The notes under the pieces were generated by a model. The model saw only the letters and a list, made by a program, of their open reading frames with translations. It ran no database searches and had not been told where the DNA came from. Both the position numbers and the translations under genes were made by a program. A stretch of DNA of 32,761 nucleotides from Candidatus Aquidulcis sp. (GTDB lineage: Bacteria; Chloroflexota; Limnocylindria; Limnocylindrales; Limnocylindraceae), in contig RGCW01000007.1 in NCBI GenBank assembly GCA_009919005.1, forward strand, positions 1 to 32,761. The letters are read 5' to 3'. Positions 17,563 through 23,965 of the stretch are shown here, one piece after another (the first letter of the stretch is position 1; each line of letters starts with the position of its first letter).

Positions 17563-18597
17563 GTGCGTAGAACTCTGGCGGTGCTGATCAGCGCGGCAAC
17601 ACTGATTGTGGCTGGTTGCTCGACGGGCGCCACACCCTCGCCCTCGTCTACCGCCTCACCCTCGATCTCACCATCTGCGGTCAAACTCACCGTCGGCCTT
17701 GGCTACATACCGGGTGTGCAGTTTGCCCCGTTCTATCTCGCACAACAGAGTGGAGCGTATGCCGCAGCGGGGCTAGATGTTACGTTGCAAAACCAGATTG
17801 ACCCCGATCTCATCAGCTTGGTAGGAAGCGGCGGGCTCGACCTTGCGCTCGCGGATGGCACCAGCATGATCCCCGCTGTTTCGCAGGGCATCCCTGTGCG
17901 GTATCTGGCGACGATATACGGCGTGCTCCCCAACGTGGTCATTGCGCGCACCGACGCTGGGATCCTGAGTCCAGCGGACCTGGCGGGGAAGCGGGTCGGT
18001 ACTCCTGGTCAGTATGGTTCGGGTTACCTCACCCTGCTCGGCATCCTCAGCGAAGCGTCGCTCAGTGTTGGAGATGTCTCACTTGACCTCTATCCCGACT
18101 TTGGTCAGACGCAGGCACTCATCAGTGGTGCCGCTGATGCGACGACGGGATATGCAAACAACGATCTGATCCAAGCGAAGGCGGCTGGGGTAGAGGTTGA
18201 AGTGTTCTACGCCTCGGCAGCAGCACCGTTTGCGGGTCCAGGGCTGATCTCCTCGCCAGCGACCATCGAAAAGAAACGTGACGCGATTCGGGCGTTTATT
18301 GCCGCCACACTCGAAGCGATGCGTCAGATCGCCGCAGACCCAGAGATCGGCGTCGCTGCTGCAGCGCAAGTCGTTCCTGAGGTTGTCGCCACTGACGCGG
18401 CCCGTGCAAACTCGCTCGCCGTCATGAAGGCCACGGTTGACGTGTGGGCTGGCCCCCTGCAGGAGAGTGCTGGCTATGGCGCGATCAGTCTCGAAGCCTG
18501 GGACACCTCAATTGCCTTCATGAGATCTATCCCCGGGCAGCAGGTCCTCGATGGGCTCAAAGCGAGTGACATCGTTGATGGCTCGCTTCTCCCGTAG
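17563..18597 (+). CDS. ABC transporter substrate-binding lipoprotein (NMT1/THI5-like)
   Basis: Signal with lipobox LIVAGC; KLTVGLGYIPGVQFAPFYLAQQSGAYAAAGLDVTLQ...LAGKRVGTPGQYGSGY. Confidence 0.9.
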   Translation: MRRTLAVLISAATLIVAGCSTGATPSPSSTASPSISPSAVKLTVGLGYIPGVQFAPFYLAQQSGAYAAAGLDVTLQNQIDPDLISLVGSGGLDLALADGTSMIPAVSQGIPVRYLATIYGVLPNVVIARTDAGILSPADLAGKRVGTPGQYGSGYLTLLGILSEASLSVGDVSLDLYPDFGQTQALISGAADATTGYANNDLIQAKAAGVEVEVFYASAAAPFAGPGLISSPATIEKKRDAIRAFIAATLEAMRQIAADPEIGVAAAAQVVPEVVATDAARANSLAVMKATVDVWAGPLQESAGYGAISLEAWDTSIAFMRSIPGQQVLDGLKASDIVDGSLLP

Positions 18598-18601
18598 TTG
18601 A

Positions 18602-19372
18602 TTAGACGAGCGGCCAGGGGAGGGGGGGCCAATCAGGAGTTGGCTCTGGAAAGCGGTCCGCTGCGCGGAGCGTGGAGAGGCGCTGAAGCAGCGCCTCAAT
18701 CTCCGTCGCATGCAGGAGTGGTGCGAGCGTTGCCCGAAGTGTTCCACCTACGCTGAGCATCTGTAGACCTCTGGTAAGGGCGTCGCGCTCCTCGTCGGAG
18801 AACGGCTCACCTCTCCAAGCCCACAGAACGGTGCGCAGCTTTGGTTCCGTCGAGAACGTTACGCCGTGGTCGACGCCAAGGACCCGACCATCGGCGAGCG
18901 GCAAGATATGCCCACCCTTGCGGTCACCGTTGTTGATAATCGCGTCAAAGAGGGCAAGGCGGCGCAGCACGTCATTGGACGTATTGACAAGGTCAACAGC
19001 GCGCTGCACCCCTTCATGCTGAATCCATAACTGCACGGCGCCTTCACCTGCAGGGCCATCGCGCAAGATAGTTGGTGGCACAACCCCTAATGCGAGCACA
19101 TCGCTGACGAGGTAGGCGGCAACTTCGCGAGCGGCGAGACTCCCCTCTGGAAAGTCCCAGAGGGGTAGCTCCCCGCGCGTCGGCTTGTAGATCACTTGAA
19201 GGCCGCTGGTGATCTCGCAGAGGAAACTGGCGTTGCTCGCCTCGGCGATGCGACCAATCGGCCGAAGGTCAGGGGAGTCGTGCATCATCTGAAGCGCGTC
19301 AACGAAGGTGATGCTCCCGGTTGCGGTCGGGAGTGGCCCGCGCCAATCCGGGTTCGCGTGGAGTTCGGGCAC
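18602..19372 (-). CDS. SCO1664-family protein (PI3/4-kinase-like fold)
   Basis: VIYKPTRGELPLWDFPEGSLAAREVAAYLVSDVLALGVVPPTI...FDAIINNGDRKGGHIL...VLGVDHGVTF; matches the SCO1664/TIGR03843 pattern; GTG start. Confidence 0.88.
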   Translation of the reverse strand: MPELHANPDWRGPLPTATGSITFVDALQMMHDSPDLRPIGRIAEASNASFLCEITSGLQVIYKPTRGELPLWDFPEGSLAAREVAAYLVSDVLALGVVPPTILRDGPAGEGAVQLWIQHEGVQRAVDLVNTSNDVLRRLALFDAIINNGDRKGGHILPLADGRVLGVDHGVTFSTEPKLRTVLWAWRGEPFSDEERDALTRGLQMLSVGGTLRATLAPLLHATEIEALLQRLSTLRAADRFPEPTPDWPPLPWPLV

Positions 19373-19373
19373 C

Positions 19374-19931
19374 TCAGTTCAGCAGGGCGGCTTTGCGGGT
19401 ACAGCGATGGCCACGTGGGTCTAGGGGAACTCCACAGTTTGGACAGATCGGTCGGCCCGCCGCGGCAAGCTGTAGCGCGTTTTCGGCGAACTCTAGGGCT
19501 GACGAGACGCTGAGAGAGACGCGCAAGACGTCGGGCCCCTCGGGTGAATCGTTGATGGGGGGCGGGGCACCCGCATCCTCAAGCGTCATGTCATCGCGAA
19601 ACTCGAGGATAAGTCTCAAGAGCGCAGGGTCCCACGCTAGAGCGATCGTCCCGACACGAAACTCCGCGGTGAAGGGTTCTGCAAGCGCAGGAAGCTTGCG
19701 CGGGAGGGGGAGTGACACCTGTGGCAGTTGCACGCTGCCACCTTCGCTGAGGTCTTTTAGCATCTCGACGATCCTGCGTGCGAGTACGGCGATCTGACTC
19801 TTCTCCACAACTACCGTCGCTGCGATCCCACCGCCGATCGCTTGGAGGTGGAAGACTCGTTGGCCAGGTTCACCAATGGCGCCAGCAATGAACTGGTCTG
19901 GCGGGTCGAAGCGGATGATTCGCCGCGACAT
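19374..19931 (-). CDS. DUF3090 family protein with C-terminal zinc ribbon
   Basis: RIIRFDPPDQFIAGAIGEPGQRVFHLQA...VEKSQIAVLARRI...GRPICPNCGVPLDPRGHRC. Confidence 0.9.
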   Translation of the reverse strand: MSRRIIRFDPPDQFIAGAIGEPGQRVFHLQAIGGGIAATVVVEKSQIAVLARRIVEMLKDLSEGGSVQLPQVSLPLPRKLPALAEPFTAEFRVGTIALAWDPALLRLILEFRDDMTLEDAGAPPPINDSPEGPDVLRVSLSVSSALEFAENALQLAAAGRPICPNCGVPLDPRGHRCTRKAALLN

Positions 19932-20614
19932 CAGCCTTCGCCGCGCAGTCGCCCGAGGAGTGATGGTCGTTTTGGCTGATCGACGAGGCCCGCGCCCGCA
20001 CCCTCTGCGGAGAGGTTGACACGCACGACAGTTGGTCGCTCGCCGCTATATCGAATGACCGTGATGCTCGCAGGGTCAACTGAGATTCGCTGGAAGAGAT
20101 CGAGTGGCGTGCCGAGTGCATCGGCCACGATCGCTTTGATGATGTCGCCATGGCTGGCGCAGAGCCACGTCTCGTCGCTCTTGAAGCGTGCATCGATCTC
20201 GCGCACCGCCTCAACCGCTCGCGCCGCTGCGGCGCGCAACGACTCTCCGTTTGGGAAGGTCATCGCGGAAGGCTGGCGCTGCACCGTGCTCCAGAGCGGA
20301 TCTTTCATCAAGGTACGCAGCTCTCTCCCTGACCAGTCGCCGTACTCCACCTCAGTGAGTCGCTCATCCACGACGATGTCAGGGCGAGATTTTACGCTCG
20401 GTCCACGCATCGAACGTACCGCCTCTGCAGTTTCGATGCAGCGCTGCATCGGGGACGAGATGATGCCCGCGATCTGCACGGCGCTCAACGCTTCGGCCAG
20501 AGTCGCCGCCTCTCTCCGTCCGGCGGGACTCAGCGGGATCCCCTTGATGCGGCCACTGAGCTTGATGCCCGTCTCGGCAGTTCGAGCGTGACGGACAAGG
20601 ATCAGTCGCGCCAT
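19931..20614 (-). CDS. Histidine phosphatase superfamily protein (MSMEG_4193-like)
   Basis: LILVRHARTAETGIKLSGRIKGIPLSPAGRREAATLAEAL...SSPMQRCIETAEA...WLCASHGDIIKAIVADALGTPLDLFQRISVDPASITVIRY. Confidence 0.9.
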   Translation of the reverse strand: MARLILVRHARTAETGIKLSGRIKGIPLSPAGRREAATLAEALSAVQIAGIISSPMQRCIETAEAVRSMRGPSVKSRPDIVVDERLTEVEYGDWSGRELRTLMKDPLWSTVQRQPSAMTFPNGESLRAAAARAVEAVREIDARFKSDETWLCASHGDIIKAIVADALGTPLDLFQRISVDPASITVIRYSGERPTVVRVNLSAEGAGAGLVDQPKRPSLLGRLRGEG

Positions 20615-20617
20615 CAG

Positions 20618-21676
20618 CTAGTCAAAGTGCTGAAAGAGTGGCGGATAACTCATGTCAATGGAGCGATTCTTGCCACCCACCTCGGCGAGTGGCACCTCAA
20701 CGATTGCGCCGGCGCGGAGCGCCACCATCACGCCAACGCGCCCAGCCTCCAGGGCCTCAACCGCGGCGACACCGTAGCGCGTGCCGAGCACTCGGTCAGC
20801 AGCGGTAGGGGCTCCACCCCGTTGCAGGTGACCGAGGCGAGTGCAGCGAACCTCAAGCCCCGTTCGCTCTTCAAGGATCGTCGCGAGTGCGTCGCCGACC
20901 GCCACCTTGTCGAGTCGTGGGTGACCAAACTCGTCGAGGGGGACTGAGGTTGCCACCGCACCGGCGGCTGGGAGTTTCACGCCCTCGGATACGACGATGA
21001 TGGAGCTACCGTCACCGATCGTTCGACGAACCTTGAGCGCTGCGACGAGGTCGTCGAGGGCAGCCGCGGAGAATTCAACTTCGGGGATCAAGATCGAGTG
21101 TGCGCCACCGGCGATCCCACCCCATGCCGCAACCCAGCCAGCGTCCCGGCCCATCACCTCAACTACCGCGACACGGTGGTGTGATGCGGTCGTTGTTGCG
21201 ATGCGATCGATCGCCTCCGTCACGATGTTTGCGGCGGTGTCAAAGCCGAGGCACCCTTCGGTACCCCAGACGTCGTTATCCATCGTCTTCGGAATCGCAT
21301 TGACCGCTGCGCCACGCTGGGCGAGCCCTGCAGCGACGGAGAGGGTGTCGTCGCCACCAATGGCGATGAGAGCATCGAGACCGAGGGCACGCATGTTCGT
21401 TTCGGCAGCGTCGAGACCGCCTTCACGCTTTAACAAGTTGGTTCTACTTGAGCCAAGCATCGTCCCCCCTTGGGCATGCACGCCGTGAACAGCTGCTCGA
21501 TCAAGTGGCCGCGTGAGTGGAGCGCCGACGGTCGCGAGCCCCCTCCAGCCGTCAAGGATTCCCACCACCGCATGCCCACCGCCGGTCGCGCGGTGCACAA
21601 CGGCTCGAATCGCGGGGTTTAAGCCTGGGCAGTCACCGCCGCCAGTGAGGACACCGATCTTCATCGGCCGACTCAT
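20618..21676 (-). CDS. 6-phosphofructokinase, sequence signature of a PPi-type/mixed PFK
   Basis: IGVLTGGGDCPGLNPAIRAVV...GTMLGSSRTN...IAIGGDDTLSVA...IPKTMDNDVWGT...LGHLQRGGAPTAADRVL; GGDD and PKTxDND signature. Confidence 0.92.
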   Translation of the reverse strand: MSRPMKIGVLTGGGDCPGLNPAIRAVVHRATGGGHAVVGILDGWRGLATVGAPLTRPLDRAAVHGVHAQGGTMLGSSRTNLLKREGGLDAAETNMRALGLDALIAIGGDDTLSVAAGLAQRGAAVNAIPKTMDNDVWGTEGCLGFDTAANIVTEAIDRIATTTASHHRVAVVEVMGRDAGWVAAWGGIAGGAHSILIPEVEFSAAALDDLVAALKVRRTIGDGSSIIVVSEGVKLPAAGAVATSVPLDEFGHPRLDKVAVGDALATILEERTGLEVRCTRLGHLQRGGAPTAADRVLGTRYGVAAVEALEAGRVGVMVALRAGAIVEVPLAEVGGKNRSIDMSYPPLFQHFD

Positions 21677-23076
21677 CGAGTTGGACCCGTCATGTTTTCA
21701 GGTCGTACGACCTCGTCAAACTGCTCGGCGCCGACGTACCCGAGAGCGAGCGCCGACTCACGAAGGGTCCCACCGCTGGCATGCGCATGTTTGGCGATCT
21801 CGGCCGCCTTGTCGTAGCCGATGATCGGCGTGAGCGCGGTCACCAACATCAGCGAAGTGTTGAGTAGCTCGGTGATGCGTTCCTCATTCGGCTCGGCGCC
21901 GGCGAGGCAGTGATCCGCGAACGAGCGTGCTGCATCTCCCAGCAGTTGGATTTCGGAGAGAAGGTTGAGTGCGATCAGCGGCTTAAACACGTTGAGTTGG
22001 AAGTTTCCTTGACTTGCCGCAAATGCGATCGCCGCATCAAGCCCGAAAACCTGCACACAGACCATGGTCAGCGCCTCCGCCTGCGTTGGGTTGACCTTCC
22101 CCGGCATGATCGACGAGCCAGGCTCGTTTTCTGGAATGCGGAGTTCGCCTAGGCCAGCGCGTGGACCAGAGGCGAGCCACCGTACATCGTTTGCCAGCTT
22201 CATCAGCGTTGCGGCAGCGGTGCGCAGTGCAGCTGAAGTTGCAAGCGTCGGCTCTTGCCCCGCGAGCGCAGCAAATTTGTCTGGCGCGCTGGTGAATCGT
22301 TCGCCCGTGAGCCTGGAGATCTCCTGCGCCGCTCGATCACCAAACTCAGGATGGGCGTTCAATCCGGTGCCGACCGCGGTTCCTCCGATGGCGAGGTCTC
22401 GCAACTCGCCCTGTGCCGCCTCAATGCGTGCGATGTCGTTTGCGAGGGCGGTGCCATGGGCGCCGAACTCTTGACCCAGTGTTAGCGGCACCGCATCTTG
22501 CAGATGCGTGCGTCCAATCTTTGTGATCGTGGACCAGGCTGCGGACTTCTCACTAATTACGGAGTGCAGGTGGCGAAGCGAGGGGAGGAGCCTTGTTCCA
22601 ATGGCGAGCGTTGCGGCAATGTGGATCGCGCTAGGAAACGCGTCATTTGATGATTGCGAAAGGTTCACATCGTCGTTCGGATGGATGGGGCTCTTCCCCC
22701 CACGCGTCCCCGTCGCCTGCTCGTTAGCGATCGAGGCGATCACCTCATTCACATTCATGTTGCTCTGCGTGCCCGAGCCGGTTTGCCACGTTGAGAGTGG
22801 GAACTCATTATCAGCGCGACCACTTCGGACTACCTCAGCCGCGGTAACGATGAGCTTCGCCTTATCGCTCGCGAGTAGTCCGAGGGTGGCGTTGACGCTC
22901 GCGGCGGCACTCTTGATTGTTGCGAGGGCGTGGATCACGTCGATCGGCATGGGGTTGTTGCCGATGGCGAAAAGCGCTCGGGAACGAGCGGTTTGAGCCC
23001 CCCAGTGGTGGTCCGCAGGAACGTCGATCTCACCGAAGGAGTCACGCTCCTTGCGAGTACCCTTTGTGTCGGTCAT
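21673..23076 (-). CDS. fumC: Class II fumarate hydratase
   Basis: RSRALFAIGNNPMPIDVIHALATIKSAAASVN...WQTGSGTQSNMNVNEVIA...HPNDDVNLSQSSNDAFPSAIHIA...GSSIMPGKVNPTQAEA; start at MTDTKG with an SD-like GGAGG upstream. Confidence 0.94.
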   Translation of the reverse strand: MTDTKGTRKERDSFGEIDVPADHHWGAQTARSRALFAIGNNPMPIDVIHALATIKSAAASVNATLGLLASDKAKLIVTAAEVVRSGRADNEFPLSTWQTGSGTQSNMNVNEVIASIANEQATGTRGGKSPIHPNDDVNLSQSSNDAFPSAIHIAATLAIGTRLLPSLRHLHSVISEKSAAWSTITKIGRTHLQDAVPLTLGQEFGAHGTALANDIARIEAAQGELRDLAIGGTAVGTGLNAHPEFGDRAAQEISRLTGERFTSAPDKFAALAGQEPTLATSAALRTAAATLMKLANDVRWLASGPRAGLGELRIPENEPGSSIMPGKVNPTQAEALTMVCVQVFGLDAAIAFAASQGNFQLNVFKPLIALNLLSEIQLLGDAARSFADHCLAGAEPNEERITELLNTSLMLVTALTPIIGYDKAAEIAKHAHASGGTLRESALALGYVGAEQFDEVVRPENMTGPTR

Positions 23077-23118
23077 CTCCGCCTCCGATACGGGCGCTGC
23101 GCGCCGCTGCCGTAAGTG

Positions 23119-23124
23119 TAGGAT
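23119..23124 (+). promoter_or_regulatory. -10-like TAGGAT 7 nt upstream of the alpha/beta hydrolase ATG
   Basis: AAGTG TAGGAT CCCACGC ATG. Confidence 0.55.
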
Positions 23125-23131
23125 CCCACGC

Positions 23132-23965
23132 ATGAGCACGGTGCCGGGGCGACCAGCCCCCTTTACAGCCAGTGATGGCGTAACCCTTTTCCGGCGGGTC
23201 TACGAGCCGCAGGGTGCGGTGCGTGGCGACCTCCTCCTTGGGCACGGCATCGGGGAGAACTCCAGTCGCTATGTACAGGCGGCGCATGCGTTCGCCGCGG
23301 CGGGGTGGCGGACCACTACCTGGGATCTACGAGGTCATGGGCGGTCAGGGGGTCCACGAGGATACGTTCGCGAGTTCCGACGCTTCCACATGGACCTCGC
23401 CGAGCAGGTAACCGCGCTGAAGCGCGGAGGTGGCCAGGTTGTGGTTGTGTCGCACAGCCTCGGTGGCCTCATCGCTTTCGGTGCAGTTGCCGAGCAGCTG
23501 GCATCACCTGACTTCTTGGTCCTCTCGGCACCCGCTCTTGAGGCGAACATCGCGACGTGGAAGCGCTTCGCTGCGCCAATCCTGTCGCGCATCCTGCCGA
23601 TGTTGCGGATACCCACGGGGATCGGCGCCGACACCTCGGCCGGCCAATCCCTAGAGAATCTTGATCCGGATGCCCCGGGGTACCTCTACGCCGTGACCAC
23701 TCGCCTCGGAGATGAAGGATTTCGCGCGCAGAAGGCGGCGCGAGATGTGGTGGCGCGCGGAGGAATGTTTCCGGTGCGAACTCTGGTTACCCAGGGAGAG
23801 CTTGATGCGCTCGTGCGACCAGAGTGGACGAAGCCGCTGGCTAACCTCGGCAACGTTGAATACGTAACGCTCAAAGGTTTCAATCACCATCCGTTTGCGA
23901 CTCGTGAATTTCAGATCGCTGTGGACCTGATGGTGGCGCGTATCAACGAAGCGACGGCGCGCTAA
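23132..23965 (+). CDS. Alpha/beta hydrolase (monoacylglycerol lipase-like)
   Basis: LLGHGIGENSSRYVQAAHAFAAAGWRTTTWDLRGHGRSGGPRGYV...VVVSHSLGGLIAFGA...KGFNHHPF. Confidence 0.88.
   Translation: MSTVPGRPAPFTASDGVTLFRRVYEPQGAVRGDLLLGHGIGENSSRYVQAAHAFAAAGWRTTTWDLRGHGRSGGPRGYVREFRRFHMDLAEQVTALKRGGGQVVVVSHSLGGLIAFGAVAEQLASPDFLVLSAPALEANIATWKRFAAPILSRILPMLRIPTGIGADTSAGQSLENLDPDAPGYLYAVTTRLGDEGFRAQKAARDVVARGGMFPVRTLVTQGELDALVRPEWTKPLANLGNVEYVTLKGFNHHPFATREFQIAVDLMVARINEATAR

Follow-up and report, generated by a model that had tools for sequence, protein, structure and literature searches.

The window analysed here, 32,761 nucleotides long, corresponds to a single contig from a 1.1 Mb genome that is 83% complete. 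We place its host in the Candidatus Limnocylindrus group of the Chloroflexota, because the named records closest to its kinase (58-72% identical) come from freshwater Chloroflexi, including Candidatus Limnocylindrus. The first-pass annotation described three minus-strand genes with near-zero spacing at positions 18602-20614, and the three ORFs are indeed present at exactly these coordinates: a histidine phosphatase of branch 1 (19931..20614), a DUF3090 protein (19374..19931) and a kinase-fold protein of the SCO1664 family with a GTG start (18602..19372). The phosphatase and DUF3090 genes overlap by 1 bp, and a 1-bp gap separates the latter from the kinase gene. Immediately upstream of the phosphatase, on the same strand, profile matches in NCBIfam and Pfam identify a 6-phosphofructokinase gene (pfk; 20618..21676), which ends 3 bp before the phosphatase gene and overlaps by 4 bp with the first gene of the run, the class II fumarase gene fumC (21673..23139). 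On the other side, a convergent gene for an ABC-transporter substrate-binding protein (17563-18597) ends 4 bp from the end of the kinase gene. The run fumC-pfk-phosphatase-DUF3090-kinase is thus bounded by positions 23139 and 18602 and is a probable transcription unit.

The same five-gene run occurs in six other Limnocylindrus loci, with fumC likewise in place and 0-4 bp between pfk and the phosphatase gene, and is absent from the other sampled Chloroflexota. PFK was considered as a conserved partner of the trio and rejected, given that direct adjacency is confined to Limnocylindrus. In two other families (f10 and f46), PFK is located at a distance of 1.9-3.6 kb, and in a third (f56, locus L205), the predicted PFK ORF extends too far, the actual start being located well beyond DUF3090.

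Family assignment and conserved features of the three proteins

The family identities proposed in the first-pass annotation held up in HMM searches. In hmmscan comparisons with NCBIfam, all three proteins exceed the curated cut-offs, with 246.7 bits for the phosphatase against TIGR03848, the MSMEG_4193 family (cut-off 203.85), 164.3 bits for DUF3090 against TIGR03847 (117.25) and 271.7 bits for the kinase against TIGR03843 (172.4). The Pfam matches of the first two proteins are to PF00300 (His_Phos_1; E 1e-46) and PF11290 (158.1 versus 27 bits; E 2e-46), respectively. The trio is therefore an already known set of database families, of which the window copy, with the same families, order and near-zero spacing, is an ordinary member; it differs from the known trio in that it is encoded in Candidatus Limnocylindrus, lacks mshC and is preceded by fumC and pfk. 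In Mycobacterium tuberculosis, we take the trio to be Rv2133c-Rv2135c. Searching the open-access literature by family and gene names, we found no published pathway covering the phosphatase, DUF3090 and the kinase, in agreement with the earlier statement that their joint pathway is not established. What is new here, all of it computational, is the structural reading of DUF3090, the exchange of its partners and the test of the trio against mycothiol synthesis.

The kinase carries, intact, the motifs IYKPTRGE, NNGDRKGGH and GVDHG that had been pointed out previously, and residues K62, G66, E67, E82, D142, N146, N147, D149, R150, K151, H154, D167 and G169 are invariant across 25 divergent homologues. 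The protein scores below the gathering cut-off of the PI3/4-kinase family PF00454 (17.6 versus 27.1 bits; E 0.0037); judging by its sequence, it is related in fold to this family and not a member of it. The confident AF2 model (pLDDT 89.9) matches the PI4K-II/FAM20-like fold, the best Foldseek matches being PI4K2-beta (9hhm; E 4.5e-7) and FAM20 (~1e-5), with a TM-score normalised by the query of ~0.5, and comparison of the kinase HMM with PDB sequences agrees (E ~5e-4). Type II PI4K and FAM20 share the fold and the catalytic residues with the window kinase, whereas the latter is shorter and belongs to a family of its own, the structurally aligned regions being 22% (PI4K2-beta) and ~13% (FAM20) identical. 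From the conserved residues and the predicted fold, the SCO1664-family kinase is expected to be active.

The catalytic residues of the phosphatase (R8, H9, R58, E88 and H155) are present in the window protein and conserved in a 93-row alignment, as are the family patterns FPxGE and DxFQR. Its closest solved relatives are histidine phosphatases, including a PhoE-type phosphatase (1ebb/1h2e), phosphoserine phosphatase 1 and CobC. The window protein has the motif RHA in place of RHG; at the position following RH, alanine is found in 10 and glycine in 12 of 22 Chloroflexota homologues, and glycine is found in each of the 68 actinobacterial homologues with a residue at this position. The RHA motif is also found in Rv2135c of M. 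tuberculosis, an acid phosphatase that is slow and generic and shows no activity as a phosphoglycerate mutase (PMC3866925). The assignment of Rv2135c to the same subfamily is taken from gene naming, not from a score, and these activities were assayed for Rv2135c only. By analogy, the literature on Rv2135c suggests a phosphatase lacking mutase activity (PMC3866925), as opposed to the phosphomutase role implied by the name of the TIGR03848 family.

DUF3090 had been described as a small zinc-ribbon partner. The zinc ribbon is present at the C terminus (CPNCGVPLDPRGHRC; 19401..19445, minus strand), and each of its C2HC ligands (C163, C166, H175 and C177) is retained in 59-62 of 63 homologues; the protein is, however, not limited to this element and is predicted to contain a duplicated PUR-like domain. 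In the AF2 model (pLDDT 89.3), the order of elements is bbbb-a, bbb-a and zinc ribbon, with a long first strand in the second half, and the halves can be aligned to each other over their last strand and helix (hhalign P 2e-4). The top eight PDB matches in Foldseek are all to Pur-alpha repeats I-II, although these matches are weak (E 2.7e-3 to 7e-2; TM-score normalised by target 0.34-0.56; rmsd 7-16). PUR repeats have the bbbba topology, two repeats making up one domain (PMC2954813), and in bacteria, nucleic-acid binding is documented for the PUR protein of Borrelia (PMC2954813; PMC3764826). At the sequence level, DUF3090 has no match to PUR entries in Pfam or PDB, a sequence search of PDB returned nothing meaningful, and a viral structure library yielded no match at E 0.001. 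Taken as a lead, not as proof, the models lend moderate support to DUF3090 being a tandem PUR-like (Pur-alpha) domain followed by a zinc ribbon. With Pur-alpha and Bpur it would have the duplicated bbbba repeat in common, and it differs from them by the zinc ribbon and the conserved motifs GxPGxRxF and EKxQ, which are retained also in sequences from kinase-less genomes. Conserved residues include G20, P22, G23, R25, F27, E43, K44, L50, D101, G159 and R160 in addition to the zinc ligands. No Ser, Thr or Tyr is conserved at 80% in DUF3090, so the protein is more likely to be a partner than a phosphorylated substrate, the latter role appearing unlikely from the alignment.

Distribution, linkage and exchange of partners

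The claim that the three families co-occur is well founded. Among named actinobacterial kinase loci, 67 of 71 contain all three genes arranged, as in the window, phosphatase-DUF3090-kinase, as do 18 of the 60 sampled kinase loci of Chloroflexota, and this recurrence indicates that the arrangement is not due to chance. In a draw of 179 genomes of Actinomycetota, the kinase is present in 80, and 79 of these also encode the phosphatase (uncorrected for shared ancestry). Among 201 genomes of Chloroflexota, with presence defined as a score above the family cut-off, the kinase was found in 111, DUF3090 in 129 and the phosphatase in 30. Kinase and DUF3090 are strongly associated, DUF3090 being present in 104 of the 111 kinase-bearing genomes (odds ratio 39, uncorrected for shared ancestry), and 29 of the 30 phosphatase-bearing genomes encode all three families. 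Phylogenetic profiling, which the first-pass annotation had suggested, thus recovers strong kinase/DUF3090 and kinase/phosphatase co-occurrence, but the partners are often separable: the remaining sampled Chloroflexota loci comprise 23 in which the kinase is linked to DUF3090 but not to the phosphatase and 19 in which it has no adjacent partner. Given that the phosphatase is missing, and hence dispensable, in many Chloroflexota and that 25 of the 201 genomes encode DUF3090 but no kinase, the triad, real and conserved as it is, represents one configuration of a modular set; the order of the trio is fixed, yet its parts come off.

No further conserved neighbour was detected around the kinase across the Chloroflexota families. 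At the level of single families, a small conserved protein without a Pfam match (FAHESERDFAAILDFYQIRWEYEP...) is encoded directly 5' of the kinase in f41 (L145:9210-9623, L146:10432-10806), and in f38, a family without the kinase, a gene 3' of DUF3090 and co-oriented with it encodes a large conserved membrane protein (L196:4355-6034, L199:4883-6523).

A different partner is found in a sister family, f3, from the same class as the window host. In four of its genomes (G021, G083, G099 and G107), a DSP/PTPase gene (PF22784, CDKN3-like) follows DUF3090 on its 3' side in the same orientation, overlapping or abutting it, and genome G065 likewise has such a gene, co-oriented and 3' of DUF3090 (DSP/PTPase genes of f3 and G065: L186:7113-7715, L187:6065-6835, L188:3660-4172, L189:5908-6492 and L217:3583-4176). 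The f3 genomes contain no match to the TIGR03843 kinase. In the DUF3090 tree, the f3 and G065 sequences group with the Limnocylindrus order (support 99/98) amid actinobacterial sequences. DUF3090 of the window's own lineage is therefore found beside a DSP/PTPase where the kinase is absent, that is, one DUF3090 lineage is associated with different phospho-enzymes. The kinase tree unites the Limnocylindrus order with Actinomycetota (100/100), apart from other Chloroflexota. The simplest reading of the two trees is transfer between Chloroflexota and Actinomycetota, with moderate support for the direction, which was probably from Actinomycetota.

To our knowledge, MshA2, an unassigned phosphatase, is an open gap in the mycothiol pathway, and the phosphatase of the trio might fill it, with the kinase and DUF3090 serving the same pathway. 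In the sampled Actinomycetota, mshC is found on the 3' side of the kinase gene in 15 of 23 loci, and all 15 mshC-positive genomes encode the kinase and phosphatase, in 14 cases with the kinase no more than 1.7 kb from mshC. Close linkage of mshC to SCO1664 has already been published as invariable (PMC4255298). However, Micrococcales that retain mshC carry it elsewhere in the genome, unlinked to the kinase, and MshC above the cut-off is absent from 65 of the 80 kinase-bearing actinobacterial genomes and from all 111 kinase-bearing genomes of Chloroflexota. The trio is thus not tied specifically to mycothiol synthesis; an exclusive role in this pathway is rejected as the general function, assignment of the phosphatase as MshA2 appears highly improbable, and a local role in mycothiol producers is possible. 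Many Chloroflexota and Actinomycetota without true MshC (including loci L031-L045) encode an MshC-like CysRS paralogue, often of ~390-430 aa, which scores roughly 345-445 bits against TIGR03447, below the cut-off of 485, often alongside a normal CysRS. As a partner of the trio, this short paralogue was rejected: its sole close linkage, in genome G193, is at 4 kb, for which chance could suffice.

Candidate functions of the proposed module

The suggestion of a reversible-phosphorylation module survives as a reading of the locus, with its substrate side remaining conjectural. We tentatively propose such a module organised around DUF3090. The SCO1664-family protein would act as an active PI4K-II/FAM20-like kinase, and the MSMEG_4193-family protein would counteract it as a phosphatase rather than work as a mutase. 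DUF3090 would be the specificity component, a predicted PUR-like scaffold with a zinc ribbon, probably binding nucleic acid or protein, that recruits both enzymes to a shared target. Direct observations underlying this proposal are the family assignments, the fixed order, the co-occurrence and the retained catalytic residues, together with the predicted kinase fold. For DUF3090, a PUR-like fold and a central position in the module have support short of proof, in the latter case because the same DUF3090 lineage occurs with different phospho-enzymes. We infer that the kinase and phosphatase share one target, which would be a protein or an RNA-protein complex as opposed to a small metabolite. Given that no phosphatase is linked to the kinase in many Chloroflexota and that 19 of 60 kinase loci contain no adjacent partner at all, the enzymes need not form one cycle.

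A route acting on small molecules, in which a sugar, inositol or another metabolite is phosphorylated by the kinase and then dephosphorylated, or has its phosphate shifted, by the phosphatase (or mutase), appears unlikely, if worth considering. The name of TIGR03848, 'putative phosphomutase', the solved histidine-phosphatase relatives, which include phosphoserine, ribazole and glucosyl-phosphoglycerate phosphatases, and the placement of the Limnocylindrus trio in one run with pfk and fumC are all consistent with it, but that neighbourhood is not conserved beyond Limnocylindrus, and a PUR-like domain with a zinc ribbon would be odd for a metabolic step. Rv2135c is weakly active on PEP, glycerol-1-P and fructose-6-P, yet its Km values for the accepted substrates are millimolar, and it is inactive on 3-phosphoglycerate (PMC3866925). 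The other alternatives retain a macromolecular target. A Ser/Thr phosphorylation switch of a single housekeeping protein, HipA- or FAM20-like and with no nucleic-acid part, would fit the similarity of the kinase to FAM20 and PI4K-II, as well as the DSP/PTPase partner of DUF3090 in the sister family, enzymes of this class acting mostly on phosphoproteins; with no conserved target gene beside the trio in Chloroflexota, we regard it as quite unlikely. We consider very unlikely a cycle of RNA modification, in which DUF3090 would bind nucleic acid (RNA) for phosphorylation by the kinase and dephosphorylation by the phosphatase: the PUR-like prediction and the nucleic-acid binding of the Borrelia PUR protein (PMC2954813; PMC3764826) speak for it, whereas lipids or proteins are the substrates of the kinases closest in fold.

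With respect to the module organised around DUF3090, the predicted fold of this protein together with the exchange of its enzyme partners turns hypothetical genes into a testable module and speaks against a link to mycothiol alone. The trio is common across Actinomycetota, including Corynebacterium and Streptomyces, and Chloroflexota. A bolder and rather improbable extension, based on the structural models, is that DUF3090 might be a PUR-type adaptor that binds single-stranded nucleic acid and works with exchangeable phospho-enzymes, such that the trio would reversibly phosphorylate RNA or an RNA-bound protein. If true, this would represent an unrecognised system of post-transcriptional control in Actinomycetota and Chloroflexota.
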